A DNA stretch of 41,338 nt from positions 1 through 41,338 of the forward strand of contig JAFGHO010000075.1 of assembly GCA_016930085.1 (NCBI GenBank), read 5' to 3'. How positions within the stretch are numbered: the first letter of the stretch is position 1; each line of letters opens with the position of its first letter. Below, one piece after another: positions 36,187 through 41,338 of the stretch. This DNA is from Spirochaetales bacterium. GTDB lineage: Bacteria; Spirochaetota; Spirochaetia; SZUA-6; JAFGRV01. The notes under the pieces were generated by a model, which was not told the DNA's origin, did not search any database, and saw only the letters and a program-made list of their open reading frames with translations. The position numbers and the translations under genes are program-made.

Positions 36187-36259
36187 TCCCCTGTAGCTCA
36201 GCTGGTAGAGCGGGTGGCTGTTAACCACTAGGTCGGCAGTTCGAGTCTGTCCGGGGGAG
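36187..36259 (+). tRNA. tRNA-Asn (anticodon GTT)
   Basis: The acceptor stem TCCCCTG (36187-36193) pairs with CGGGGGA (36252-36258). The D stem is GCTC/GAGC, the anticodon stem GGTGG/CCACT surrounds CTGTTAA with anticodon GTT at 36220-36222, and the T arm is GGCAG-TTCGAGT-CTGTC (36235-36251). G36259 is the discriminator base, and CCA is not encoded. A promoter precedes it and a terminator follows. The opposite strand carries the end of the serine recombinase reading frame. Confidence 0.96.
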
Positions 36260-37999
36260 CGAGAAAAATCCCGGCAAAAAGCCGGGATTTTTTTTGCTCT
36301 TCCGGTCAGGTGAGAAGTGGCGAAGAAATATTTCGAGTGAAGCGATGAAATATTTCAGGCACAAGACTGCGAAGCAGTCTTGTGCGGGCAGTCTCGAGTC
36401 TGTCCGGGGGAGTAAGTTGGCATTCTGCGAACCCTCGTAGAGTGCCTTTTTTTTTGCCTTTTCATATTTAGATTTGAACTCTAATATCTCGTTCTTCAAT
36501 AGGAACTTATACGGCTCTTTCCAAAGAATCTGGGCGACATCATTATCTATAATCACCCCATCAGCCATTATCCCCAGAAGTTTTGTCTTTTTATTATAGG
36601 ATTCTGCGAGGAACTTTATCGGATTGTCCCGAAGTTCATCTACCAAATCCATTACTTCAAGAATAATTTTACTATAATCTGAATTGAGCAATTTCTGTCG
36701 TTCTAATAAGAGTCCTGCTTCTCTGTCATACTCATCCATTTTCCGTTTTACAGAGTCCCTATCTATTTCTCCTCCCATAAACAGGTCAATGAGTTTATCC
36801 TTTTTCTCGTCTATATGAAGTATGCTTTTGGCTATGTCTTTTTTGCCTTTTTTATTATTTTCTGCTCTCTGTTCCAGGATTTCTTTTGCTACAGTTTTGA
36901 CCCTATCAGCAAAATCGGGCGAATACCTCATTTCTCGGACAGCAGAATCCAGCATCTCAAAAATCTTCTTTTCAGGTATATAAACCTGTCGTGGGGAATT
37001 AGGACAAGTGTGTTTGTAATAAATATAGGTTCCTTTTTTCAGGTCTCCTGTCATCATCAAACCGCAGGAACATTTTAAGTATTTCGCAAGCAGAAATGTA
37101 GGTTCGTTTTCAGTGCGACCAACATAACTGCTTTCCAACCTTTTCATCCTCTCTTCAAATCTATGCTTTGAAAAATATGGTTGATGATTTCCTTTATAGG
37201 CTTCGCCCTGATAAAGAAATTCCACTGCATAAAAACATTTAGTAAGTAGAGAATACATATTACCCTTTGTCCATTTCTTTCCCGTTCGGTTGGTAATCCC
37301 TGCTTTATTGATAAACCTTACAAACTGTTTCAGGGAATAATCGCCGGTATCAAAGCTATCAAAAATATATCGTAAATCTTTTTCTACAGCAGGGTCAATC
37401 TCGTGTTGCTTTTTTTCTTTGTTGTAACAGTATCCAAATAATGCCCTACCAGGGGCAACACCTTTAAGGGCTTTGTATTTGTTTGCCATTCTAACATCGT
37501 AGGAAATTTTATCCGACCAGTGTTTGTTGATTGTCGTTTCAATACCCAAATACATTCTGTCAGTGTGTGTTGAGTCTTTTGAAAATATCCTTCGGTCCTG
37601 AAAAAAATGTATGCAAAAATCCTGATTATCTACCAACTTTTCTATTCTATTCAAATCTGGAAAATTGCGGGACATTCTATCACTGGATTTGAAGATAATG
37701 TTTTTAATACCAAAGTAAAGAGCCAAATCCAACATCTGGTTAAATACCTTGCGACCTTCATTTTTAGCACTTTCAACCACATTAAATATCTGGGTAAGGT
37801 GCAGATGATTACGGGTGGCATAACTACGAGCATTTTCTTCCTGGTTTTCACGAGAGTTACCATCGTCCTGAACATCACTTGAAATTCGGGCATAAGCAAA
37901 TGCAGGGATTTTATTTAGTTCTTGTGCTTCTCTTATAGCTTCAACTATTTTCTTGTATAATTTCCGATTTTCTTCCATAACTTTACAACTTTGGGACAT
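36221..37999 (-). CDS. Large serine recombinase (site-specific integrase), tail runs into tRNA-Asn
   Basis: A 592-codon frame encoding a large serine recombinase. FAYARISSDVQDDGNSRENQ holds the catalytic Ser in the resolvase domain (33-170). The recombinase domain follows (YKALKGVAPGRALFGYCYNK...GKKWTKGNMYSLLTKCF), then a zinc ribbon (LKCSCGLMMTG...YYKHTCPNSP) and a coiled coil (about 400-450). It would cut and join att sites without DNA homology. From about residue 530 the frame reads LLPRTDS, then junk, then SLPRTDSNCRPSG. These are antisense translations of the two tRNA-like repeats, and the stop TAA comes from the tRNA anticodon loop. The true protein probably ends near residue 530, or its normal 3' end was lost on integration. 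No ribosome site is clear at the ATG. The AT-rich sequence marks it as acquired. Confidence 0.8.
   Translation of the reverse strand: MSQSCKVMEENRKLYKKIVEAIREAQELNKIPAFAYARISSDVQDDGNSRENQEENARSYATRNHLHLTQIFNVVESAKNEGRKVFNQMLDLALYFGIKNIIFKSSDRMSRNFPDLNRIEKLVDNQDFCIHFFQDRRIFSKDSTHTDRMYLGIETTINKHWSDKISYDVRMANKYKALKGVAPGRALFGYCYNKEKKQHEIDPAVEKDLRYIFDSFDTGDYSLKQFVRFINKAGITNRTGKKWTKGNMYSLLTKCFYAVEFLYQGEAYKGNHQPYFSKHRFEERMKRLESSYVGRTENEPTFLLAKYLKCSCGLMMTGDLKKGTYIYYKHTCPNSPRQVYIPEKKIFEMLDSAVREMRYSPDFADRVKTVAKEILEQRAENNKKGKKDIAKSILHIDEKKDKLIDLFMGGEIDRDSVKRKMDEYDREAGLLLERQKLLNSDYSKIILEVMDLVDELRDNPIKFLAESYNKKTKLLGIMADGVIIDNDVAQILWKEPYKFLLKNEILEFKSKYEKAKKKALYEGSQNANLLPRTDSRLPAQDCFAVLCLKYFIASLEIFLRHFSPDRKSKKNPGFLPGFFSLPRTDSNCRPSG
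36235..36259 (+). repeat. tRNA 3' end, copy 1 of an att-like direct repeat
   Basis: The T arm and acceptor end of the tRNA (GGCAGTTCGAGTCTGTCC then GGGGGAG). The same sequence returns at 36387-36412 with one extra C. Elements that integrate at tRNA 3' ends leave this kind of repeat. Confidence 0.65.
36266..36295 (+). terminator. Intrinsic terminator of tRNA-Asn
   Basis: AAATCCCGGC (36266-36275), an AAAAA loop, GCCGGGATTT (36281-36290), then more Ts. It starts 7 bases after the tRNA. Confidence 0.92.
36325..36384. repeat. Palindrome cluster between the tRNA and the recombinase
   Basis: GAAATATTTC, a perfect 10-base palindrome, occurs at 36325-36334 and again at 36347-36356, 12 bases apart. 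It is followed by a hairpin CACAAGACTGC-gaa-GCAGTCTTGTG (36360-36384) with a perfect 11-bp stem. None of it lies in a convincing gene, and the recombinase frame merely runs through it. The position next to a serine recombinase and an att-like repeat fits recombinase-binding or scar DNA. Confidence 0.6.
36387..36412 (+). repeat. tRNA 3' end, copy 2 of an att-like direct repeat
   Basis: GGCAGTCTCGAGTCTGTCC then GGGGGAG repeats the tRNA 3' end at 36235-36259 with one inserted C after GGCAGT. There is no tRNA 5' half next to it, so it is a displaced end, not a second tRNA. Confidence 0.7.
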
Positions 38000-38085: not shown

Positions 38086-38525
38086 TTATTTTAATAAAAT
38101 TATAGGCGATACAATTTTTGGAATAAGCTTTCCGCTTTTCAATCGTATATATCCCGCATATATTGGTCGTATTAAAGATGTTAGTTGGTTTTTCACAAAG
38201 AGATTACCAGACATATTGCGATAGTCATTTTCGTCTGTTACTTTCTTCACCGATTGCGGTGAAAATCCTTTTGAAAATAGATTAAAAACCATTCTAATTA
38301 TTCGTGCCTCTAACGGTTCAATGGTTACTGTCCCATCACTATTCACTTTATAACCATACAGCTGTTCATGAGCATCATGTATGGCTTGCCCGGCATCATC
38401 CCATGCTTTCCTGCCCCGCCGCAATATCGCGTTGATGATTTATTCCCAGTTATCGTGCTTCCGGTAAAAATCATATTCCATCAGTCTTATCCGGTTTTCG
38501 CGGACTTCGGCATTATGATTGCGGG
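38086..38525 (-). pseudogene. Broken second serine recombinase (recombinase-domain fragment)
   Basis: On the minus strand one frame reads VRENRIRLMEYDFYRKHDNW-E, an in-frame TAA at about 38437-38439, then IINAILRRGRKAWDDAGQAI, YGYKVNSDGTVTIEPLEARI and IRMVFNLFSKGFSPQSVKKV. The second part is the start of a recombinase domain (GYKV...I.P.EA.I...F). It lacks the resolvase domain before it and the zinc ribbon after it, ending at KLIPKIVSP. It is a remnant, distinct in sequence from the intact recombinase beside it. Confidence 0.65.
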
Positions 38526-38538
38526 GTAATTATTTTTA

Positions 38539-40785
38539 TTACTGAATATGAACTATGTATACTGCCCCGTCGTAATTATCGAAGAATACATCTTCAACAA
38601 AAGTTCCGGGAGCGCCTATTACAATATAATTTCCGTCAATATCAACAGAACGTCCGAAAAGATCAGCATCTGTATCAGGCGGATATATTTTTTCCAGTTC
38701 TTCCCAGCTGTTGTCTCCTGTCCTCTGAAACAGGCGTACTATATTTCCGTAATCGTATCCTGCAACGGCGTAATCACCGTCAATTGCTACCGAAGAAGCG
38801 ATGAACGGTAATCCTGTATCTCCGTCTACAAGCAGTACGCCTGAATCCCATATATTGGCGGAAGTTCGGTGGTATATGTATACACCCGTACCGTTATTGT
38901 TATCGACAATAATATAATCCCCGCTGATATCTACTTCAGATCCAAACTGATCATTTTCTTTAGCTGATGTTCCGGTAAGCTTGACTTCATTTCCCCAGGC
39001 ATTCAGGCCGGTCCTCTGGAAGACATATACAGCTCCTGCATTCGTATCAATTTCATCATCCCTGTACGCGCCGATTACCGCATAATCTCCATCAATAGCC
39101 GCGTCGAACCCGAAGTAATCGCTCTGCTCGGGATCAGGATTAGGCAGCTCAGCGTATTCTCCCCAGGTATCAACGTCTGTTTTATGGAATATATATGCTG
39201 CGCCGATATTTCCATCGGACACGGAATCGATCATAGGAGCTCCGCCGATAATATAATCTCCGCTGATATCAATTGATGCAGAAAATTCATCTGTAGCTCC
39301 ATCGCCGGAGGGAGAAATGAGGATGTCCGCATTTGTCCAGGACCCGGCGCCATCACCGACGGCAAGGAAAATACCACCACCTCCATGGTCGAGACTTACC
39401 TGTACGCCGCCCAGAAGATAGTTTTCATCCAAAGCAACAGACCAAAAATTGGTTGCATAAGAAGATGCATAATTTGATATTACATCGGCATATTGCCATT
39501 CATTTGTATCTGTTCTTTCATATGCTCGTAATAAAGAGTATCCTGCACCGTAATAATCTCTGGTCGCCGCAAAATAATCCCCGCAGACAACTACCTGTTC
39601 TCCAAACATCGTTGTGGTTTCTTCGTCCAGCCAATGACCCAGCTGGCGGTAAATGTTAAAGTCCACTTCTACTTCAGCCGAGGCTGTAAAACTGCCATCC
39701 GAAGTTGTTGCAGTAATTGTCGCATCTCCTCTTGACAGTGCTTTTACCTCTCCGCCCAAAACTGTGGCTACCGAAGTGTCGCTGCTTTCCCATATTACTG
39801 ATCTATCACTGGCGTTCCCGGGTATTACAGTGGGTGTAATCGTTACTGAATCTCCCGCATTTATAGTGGTTTCTGTAATATCAAGTTCTATACCTGTAAC
39901 GGAAATCCATTCACAGCTAACCGTACATATATCAGTTACAGCGCTGTCATCGCTTGTAAGAGTAATTGTCGCTGTACCGACCCCGACTGCTTCGACAAGA
40001 CCGTTTTCATCTACCGTGGCTGCTGATTCGTTATCACTTGACCATGAAACAGAAGGATCGGAAGCATTCGCGGGAAGCACATTATATACGAGAGACTGTG
40101 ATGAACCTACTCCGATTGTCACTGAATCTTCAATGATATTGACACCCAAAACCGGCAGCCATTCCACATGTACTGTACATGAATCACTGTATCCGCCGTC
40201 TACGCTGGTTACTGTTACTACTGTATCTCCCGCTGCAACAGGAGTGATTGTTATACTGTGGTCACTGGAATCTTCTGATATTGTTGCAACAAGATCATTG
40301 GAATTCGTCCAGTCCATATTATCTTCGGATACTTCCTCCGGCAATACATCAGGTACAAGCTTTTCTTCGGTTCCTATGTAGACCGTTATTTCATCCGGCA
40401 AATCAACATCCGAAACATGCACAAATATAGATGTAACTATACAAGTATCTGTAAATCCGCCATCCTCCGTAGTTACAGTAATAACAGCTGTTTCTTCCGT
40501 ATCTGACAGGGAATAGACTGTTACTTCGTTTCCATCATCAATAATATATGCTGTGGAACTGTCACTTGTCGTCCAGGTTACTTTCTTGTTTTCGGCAGTA
40601 TCAGGTGTTACTGTTGCTGTCAGCACTTCCGTATAGCCTGTTACTATTGTTGTTTCATGAGTATTAAGGCTGACACCACTCACCACAGCCGAATCAGCGC
40701 CGGACTTTTCTACACTCGGACATGCTGTCAATAATATAAATACAGAAGTCATTATCAATGACATCGCATATAATTGTTTTTTCAT
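38539..40785 (-). CDS. Surface lipoprotein with four Big_2 (Ig-like) domains and FG-GAP repeats
   Basis: A 748-residue predicted surface protein. Residues 1-21 are a lipoprotein signal ending LLTAC, so C22 is lipidated. Residues 35-375 hold four bacterial Ig-like (Big_2) domains; each ends in the pattern W.S.D.S.A.V...G.V.A...G.ATIT (WSSDNESAATVDENGLVEAV, WESSDTSVATVLGGEVKALS). Residues 385-748 carry about seven FG-GAP-type repeats (DYAVIGAYRDDEIDTNAGAV, YVFQRTGLNAWG; GNYIVIGAPGTFVED), which fold as a beta-propeller that often binds ligands. ATG 40785 has an AGGAG site. The codons are AT-rich relative to the core. It is likely an adhesin or sensor on the cell surface, but no partner is visible. 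Confidence 0.88.
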   Translation of the reverse strand: MKKQLYAMSLIMTSVFILLTACPSVEKSGADSAVVSGVSLNTHETTIVTGYTEVLTATVTPDTAENKKVTWTTSDSSTAYIIDDGNEVTVYSLSDTEETAVITVTTEDGGFTDTCIVTSIFVHVSDVDLPDEITVYIGTEEKLVPDVLPEEVSEDNMDWTNSNDLVATISEDSSDHSITITPVAAGDTVVTVTSVDGGYSDSCTVHVEWLPVLGVNIIEDSVTIGVGSSQSLVYNVLPANASDPSVSWSSDNESAATVDENGLVEAVGVGTATITLTSDDSAVTDICTVSCEWISVTGIELDITETTINAGDSVTITPTVIPGNASDRSVIWESSDTSVATVLGGEVKALSRGDATITATTSDGSFTASAEVEVDFNIYRQLGHWLDEETTTMFGEQVVVCGDYFAATRDYYGAGYSLLRAYERTDTNEWQYADVISNYASSYATNFWSVALDENYLLGGVQVSLDHGGGGIFLAVGDGAGSWTNADILISPSGDGATDEFSASIDISGDYIIGGAPMIDSVSDGNIGAAYIFHKTDVDTWGEYAELPNPDPEQSDYFGFDAAIDGDYAVIGAYRDDEIDTNAGAVYVFQRTGLNAWGNEVKLTGTSAKENDQFGSEVDISGDYIIVDNNNGTGVYIYHRTSANIWDSGVLLVDGDTGLPFIASSVAIDGDYAVAGYDYGNIVRLFQRTGDNSWEELEKIYPPDTDADLFGRSVDIDGNYIVIGAPGTFVEDVFFDNYDGAVYIVHIQ

Positions 40786-41259: not shown

Positions 41260-41338
41260 ATGAAGGAAAAAGTCGTTGATGTCAAGAATAGAATCGATAA
41301 AATAGAGACAACAGATGACTGTCTGTCCAGCCGAGCCG
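41260..41338 (+). CDS. Transposase, N-terminal fragment (probably IS1380 family), runs off the window
   Basis: ATG 41260 follows AGGAGG by 10 bases and reads MKEKVVDVKNRIDKIETTDD then CLSSRA to the window end. The D..LSSRA(G) pattern with a basic start resembles the first residues of IS1380-type DDE transposases. Only 26 codons are visible, so the family call relies on this and on the inverted repeat before it. Confidence 0.5.
   Translation, partial: MKEKVVDVKNRIDKIETTDDCLSSRA

Follow-up and report, generated by a model that had tools for sequence, protein, structure and literature searches.

Islands at the 3′ ends of tRNA genes have been described for tyrosine integrases, and in the Islander study only these enzymes are known to target tRNA genes; integration leaves the tRNA whole, and the far end of the island is marked by a displaced tRNA fragment (PMC4383910). 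Integration of serine recombinase elements in tRNA genes is described as rare, with phage phiRSM1 and eight Mycobacterium elements in tRNA-Leu as the named cases (PMC3218068). The term 'transfer RNA' is absent from a large survey of large serine recombinases (LSRs) (PMC10083194). The Mycobacterium elements, termed AICEs, and phiRSM1, which is found in tRNA-Ser, are serine-recombinase elements at tRNA 3′ ends; phiRSM has a small resolvase-like enzyme and a 13-nt core, and the passages on these elements in the two sources describe no cross-phylum clade, no open reading frame that ends inside a tRNA and no inverted T-arm half-site (PMC3218068, PMC3816273). Streptococcal ICEs in rumA have a single serine integrase with an att site in its own 3′ end, and integration swaps 3′ ends; here the target is a protein gene and the repeats are 2-21 bp (PMC4701971).

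The locus described here is part of a window of 41,338 nucleotides, which is an entire contig and ends at 41338. As in AICEs and phiRSM1, with which it was compared by description only, a serine-recombinase element is found at a tRNA 3′ end; as in the Islander islands, the tRNA is whole; and as in the rumA ICEs, integration may have exchanged the 3′ end of the integrase gene. It differs from phiRSM in having a large enzyme, from the Islander islands in the enzyme family and in that a displaced tRNA fragment marking a far end was not found, and from the rumA elements in having a tRNA gene as the target. The initial annotation stated that LSRs rarely use tRNA genes. This agrees with the literature (PMC4383910, PMC3218068), but the clade that includes the window recombinase is an exception. 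The literature searched, outside of which most subscription papers fall, yielded no broad clade of LSRs at tRNA ends with a tRNA-supplied stop, and the LSR family that inserts at tRNA genes is a little-noticed one.

The tRNA-Asn locus and its recombinase gene

The features of the locus are as follows.

36187-36260, plus strand: tRNA-Asn (GTT), intact, the putative target gene; called by ARAGORN at 36187-36260 and by Rfam at 36187-36259; copy 1 of the 3′ end is at 36235-36259
36221-37999, minus strand: LSR of 592 amino acids, with a resolvase domain at residues 33-181 and a recombinase domain at 209-289
36264-36296, plus strand: intrinsic terminator of the tRNA, which opens the 153-bp tail unit; from the sequence, 85% alike here to that of the family-mate G002
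36297-36323, minus strand: a part of the tail unit in which the tRNA 3′ end (T-arm and acceptor strand) is repeated in degenerate form and inverted orientation; similar pieces are found in G055, G001, G002 and G090
36325-36384, no strand: tail-unit stretch with the repeated palindrome GAAATATTTC and the hairpin CACAAGACTGCGAAGCAGTCTTGTG, from the sequence
36387-36412, plus strand: copy 2 of the tRNA 3′ end, the left half of the putative attL-like junction of the recombinase
36413-36460, no strand: element-side arm behind copy 2, with GAACC, a terminator-like hairpin and the last codons of the recombinase proper

Sequence comparison bears out that the last 25 bases of the tRNA return with an added C at 36387-36412, past the tRNA terminator, as first noted. 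The 19 bases TCGAGTCTGTCCGGGGGAG are exactly repeated at 36394-36412, the start-to-start distance is 153 bp, and copy 2, read from 36387, consists of the last 25 bases of the tRNA with one inserted C. The tRNA terminator sits between the two copies and the second terminator-like hairpin is behind copy 2. The repeat is no chance match. With up to 2 mismatches allowed, the own genome (5.36 Mb) matches the tRNA-end sequence in just two places, and the reversed pattern, as a control, in none; a third copy, which the initial annotation had proposed to look for beyond the window, is not present in the genome at that threshold. Two features were absent from that account. The partial tRNA 3′ end that lies inverted at 36297-36323 belongs to an inverted pair, I1, with 43-nt arms that are 74% complementary, and a GAACC sequence is found at 36429-36433, which is 16 bases past the tRNA end as given by copy 2.

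The recombinase frame had been said to pass antisense through both copies and to stop in the anticodon loop, and the open reading frame at 36221-37999 on the minus strand shows both. The frame reads NANLLPRTDSRLPAQ across copy 2 and ends with FSLPRTDSNCRPSG across the tRNA, where the TAA stop (36221-36223) lies within the anticodon loop. As 153 is divisible by 3, the same frame runs through both copies. It also stays open in 30% of shuffles of the gap between the copies, and therefore the in-frame passage by itself requires no explanation. Residues from about 530 onward are antisense tRNA and tail-unit sequence. Before the tail unit was present, or without it, the protein would have ended with NANLLPRTDSNCRPSG and a stop, as clade members do, judging from the frame; this prediction concerns the protein end only and not the full sequence of an ancestor.

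The protein has the resolvase N-terminal domain followed by the recombinase domain (PF00239 and PF07508; E 6.6e-15 and 1.4e-7, both above the cut-off), and it matches the phage integrase family phrog_95 (E 8.6e-52). A catalytic-type serine motif, ARISS, is present at residue 37 and a DRxxR motif, DRMSR, at 107. LSRs also have a C-terminal part with a zinc ribbon and a coiled coil; the zinc ribbon PF13408 is reported for relatives but not for the window protein, although a CSCG motif aligns with PF13408. Adjoining the recombinase, at 38539-40785, is a gene for a 748-amino acid protein with bacterial Ig-like (Big_2) and FG-GAP repeats.

Recombinase genes that run into tRNA genes

The first hint of a wider group came from G010, where a diverged recombinase ends with LLPRLDSNQRPRD and a stop within a displaced tRNA-Asn copy. 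A Legionella relative served to search 393 genomes from the phylum of the window, and the 20 top-scoring loci (E up to 2e-17) were inspected. The recombinase frame runs antisense into a tRNA gene at 19 of these 20 loci, with tRNA-Asn, His, Leu, Val, Arg and Ser as targets, and the stop is inside the antisense tRNA gene at 18, the window counted. At a decayed locus (L259) the frame traverses the whole of tRNA-Ser, and one clade member (L271) is found away from any tRNA. Two weaker loci likewise overlap tRNA genes, L283 tRNA-Glu and L284 tRNA-Leu. As a control, PF07508 loci were taken from the class; of 30 such loci, 26 are away from tRNAs.

Related genes are found more widely. A recombinase of Elusimicrobiota ends in tRNA-Asn and two other recombinases end in tRNA-Glu. 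Among public relatives, MT837677 traverses tRNA-Leu, the stop of MT836653 is within tRNA-Glu and that of a Legionella adelaidensis gene within tRNA-Asn, a decayed Neochlamydia gene enters tRNA-Tyr, and a relative in Sulfitobacter is away from tRNAs. Against phage and plasmid collections, the Legionella query gives E values of 1e-105, 2e-82 and 3e-60 and then, after a sharp gap, 1e-24. Viral contigs searched with the window protein or the Elusimicrobiota protein gave no confirmed relatives. The phrog_95 integrases, which include TP901-1-type LSRs, have the same superfamily and domain layout as the window recombinase but are about 20-25% identical to it. None of 48 LSRs of this other, TP901-1-like lineage on viral contigs is at a tRNA, a weak control since many of the contigs end at the integrase; with that limit, the lineage was rejected as the source of tRNA targeting.

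In a tree of 49 proteins, the label 'at a tRNA' requires 3 changes, compared with 16.1 when labels are shuffled, and none of 500 shuffles reaches so low a number. A group of 14 with support 100/99 includes the window protein, and 13 of its members are found at tRNA-Asn, His, Leu or Arg. The sequences closest to the window protein are three tRNA-Asn recombinases, 38-40% identical. The tRNA-Glu recombinases constitute a separate group, and thus tRNA targeting may have arisen at least twice. Loci L034, L036 and L283 belong to this separate lineage, with genes that end inside tRNA-Glu; it apparently represents an independent move to tRNA targets.

With respect to the tRNA, the recombinase stops of the clade are spread over the three possible frames, and therefore the antisense tail residues themselves are not conserved. 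Nearly all frames are open into the tRNA, which suggests that the 3′ end of the gene lies in attP.

A sequence signature accompanies these genes. GAACY is found behind the tRNA end in 14 of 17 clade junctions, the window left out, and is exactly 16 bases on in 12; at 12-20 bases past the end it is found at none of 148 control tRNAs (Fisher 9e-18, a value that is descriptive only because the motif was picked after the junctions had been inspected). In the window, GAACC is 16 bases behind copy 2, a spacing that shifts by one base if counting starts at the discriminator base, and no such motif is found behind copy 1. Sites of large serine recombinases are composed of two inverted half-sites, as is established for the family. 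GAACY and the T-loop GTTCGA form an inverted repeat whose midpoint is about one base short of the annotated tRNA end, as expected for such a site. Copy 2 and the bases behind it are, as judged from this signature, the attL-like junction of the recombinase.

One empty site is seen at tRNA-His. The sequences of G326 and G332, two members of one genus, agree at 94% for 1576 bp, as far as the final base of the tRNA; past it, G326 has a plain terminator and G332 a recombinase arm. About 30 kb behind the G332 recombinase contain genes for terminase, portal, scaffold and tape-measure proteins, and thus the clade rides at least one prophage. No empty site was obtained for the tRNA-Asn element of G258, for which the G200 contig ends at the tRNA, or for G310, the only member of its family among the genomes compared. 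A search for the far junction of this prophage by way of the G326 flank gave weak matches only and no join. A far att site in the form of a direct repeat of the tRNA end, sought within 20-40 kb of clade members, gave chance-level matches only, and a second att site was found neither for the window element nor for any clade member in the stretches read. Att sites of LSRs may share only 2 bp. Integration is therefore deduced from one side only, that of the tRNA.

The initial annotation offered, as one of two readings, that the recombinase targets a tRNA. With 19 of 20 clade loci at tRNAs, the clustering on the tree and the att signature at copy 2, this is the reading that is well supported, as far as comparison of sequences goes. 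The other reading, that a tyrosine-integrase element was at the site earlier, is possible for the 153-bp unit. The presence of an LSR gene at the tRNA-Asn end follows from membership in a family that inserts mobile DNA at tRNA genes. A tRNA-specialised LSR clade with several isoacceptor targets would imply that islands are being overlooked, and the att signature would allow the clade to be easily mapped. The target half-site of these enzymes, the T-arm, is among the most conserved bacterial DNA, which may make them useful as integration tools, and the switches in specificity between tRNA-Asn, His, Leu, Val and Arg are open to direct testing.

Tail units behind tRNA genes

In E. coli, the rtT repeats of tyrT are downstream units that each bear a tRNA 3′ end. 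Units of a comparable kind are found in relatives of the window organism downstream of tRNA-Asn: a terminator is followed by part of the tRNA 3′ end in inverted orientation and by hairpins, and some units add a displaced tRNA end and then another terminator. In one genus, the number of units at tRNA-Asn is 0 in G030 and 1 each in G055 and G090, with no recombinase alongside. The tRNA 3′ end is displaced by about 146 bp in G055 and by about 135 bp in G090, and the terminator after the G055 tail resembles the one directly behind the tRNA in G030. The 153-bp unit of the window has the same layout, including the inverted copy. The repeat had been viewed as an att site left by one integrated element, a reading that a comparison with relatives lacking the recombinase was to decide. 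These relatives do show displaced tRNA-Asn ends at similar spacing, and other tRNA genes of G055 have units of this type as well, which speaks against the repeat as the integration scar of one element. The 153-bp unit between the copies is probably a tRNA-tail repeat separate from the recombinase.

In G055, units are also found behind tRNA-Pro, Ser, Arg, Cys and Ala, in some cases as tandem copies. There are three units of about 75 bp behind tRNA-Cys (L131), and tRNA-Ala (L132) is followed by two of about 170 bp, each with a tRNA end and a terminator. When the 400 nt downstream of 119 tRNAs from four genomes were scanned for direct copies of 14 nt or more, 8 tRNAs had one; the reversed query gave 0 and the upstream control 2. 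At least one of the 8 (L099, at tRNA-Ser in the own genome) may instead reflect an adjacent tRNA gene that went unrecognised. Inverted 3′-end copies number 8, with 0 in the control. In the own genome a tail unit is clear only at tRNA-Asn. The family-mates G001 and G002, which have the same PolX - tRNA-Asn locus, show no recombinase alongside in the short stretches available.

Rfam searches of the loci, tRNA-Asn included, detected no RtT or other known RNA in the tail units, and the sequences of these units and of the E. coli repeats are unrelated as far as tested. A literature search for the tyrT rtT repeats found none. The repeat motif CACGCYGGTRCGRCAGG was rejected as a dispersed element; matches elsewhere are mostly chance matches in coding sequence, and only those in G055 and G090 are at tRNA-Asn.

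Possible origins of the arrangement

The locus is rather likely to be composite, with a tRNA-targeting LSR element integrated at the tRNA-Asn end and an independent 153-bp tail unit. An LSR element would have entered the tRNA-Asn gene at its 3′ end, or a copy of this end, with the recombinase gene at the end of the element and converging with the tRNA. The recombinase, presumably an active enzyme, would pair the T-arm half-site with an inverted half-site of the GGAC..TCGAAC type behind the last tRNA base. Wherever the crossover may have fallen, integration would join the open 3′ end of the gene to antisense tRNA, such that the stop codon would come from the tRNA, and the element would bring a new terminator for the tRNA. 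The tail unit, comprising the 3′ end, terminator, inverted T-arm piece and hairpins, may have been added independently or may have been present beforehand, and with it at the tRNA, the tRNA and the attL of the recombinase are now 153 bp apart.

That the tail unit was definitely first, and that the recombinase element entered copy 2 as a decoy attB with the real tRNA spared, is possible but doubtful. The att signature is indeed behind copy 2 and not behind the tRNA, and G002, with no recombinase there, has a displaced tRNA-Asn end and a terminator of the same type, although its contigs break and the spacing is unreadable. The added C in copy 2, however, weakens the T-arm half-site, and the order of events is beyond the reach of sequence alone.

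An unlikely history is accretion, in which the recombinase element came first and a tyrosine-integrase element then entered the same end and was deleted to 153 bp, copy 2 being a shared att site. G010 has the same order with a longer insert: an intact tRNA-Asn, 10.5 kb of genes, a 47-bp 3′ half and a recombinase that runs into this copy. The 10.5 kb (L046, contig C287, 3910-14480) contain sugar-metabolism and transport genes, and L046 resembles a second tRNA-Asn island added on top of an earlier one. In the window, a remnant of a second serine recombinase, with the recombinase domain only, lies upstream of the first at 38086-38424 on the minus strand (phrog_95, E 6e-10); this fragment suggests that the tRNA-Asn site was visited more than once. 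The 153 bp, however, contain no gene remnant, and their layout of terminator, inverted T-arm piece and hairpins recurs at integrase-free tRNAs.

Pure coincidence, a recombinase gene having decayed beside a tRNA and read into it by chance, can hardly be entertained: a frame antisense to a tRNA commonly stays open over 10-20 codons, but 19 of 20 clade loci are at tRNAs, the label clusters on the tree, and the motif test, though descriptive, gives p of about 1e-17.

In this clade the tRNA would supply the last residues and the stop only while the element is integrated, and excision would give the recombinase a different C-terminus. The join may thus be a built-in switch, between integration and excision or of the enzyme level, and, independently, tail copies may serve as decoy sites that spare the tRNA; both appear improbable.

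Other observations concern tRNA-Asn in relatives. G025 has a 45-bp tRNA-Asn 3′ half (L047, contig C1, 4095903-4095947) 935 kb from its intact tRNA-Asn, and the latter is followed by an apparent tyrosine integrase. Contigs of several relatives break at or just behind tRNA-Asn (L312 at the end of G200:C4, L004 at the end of G002:C386 and L006 at the start of G007:C8), as if a repeat there halts assembly.
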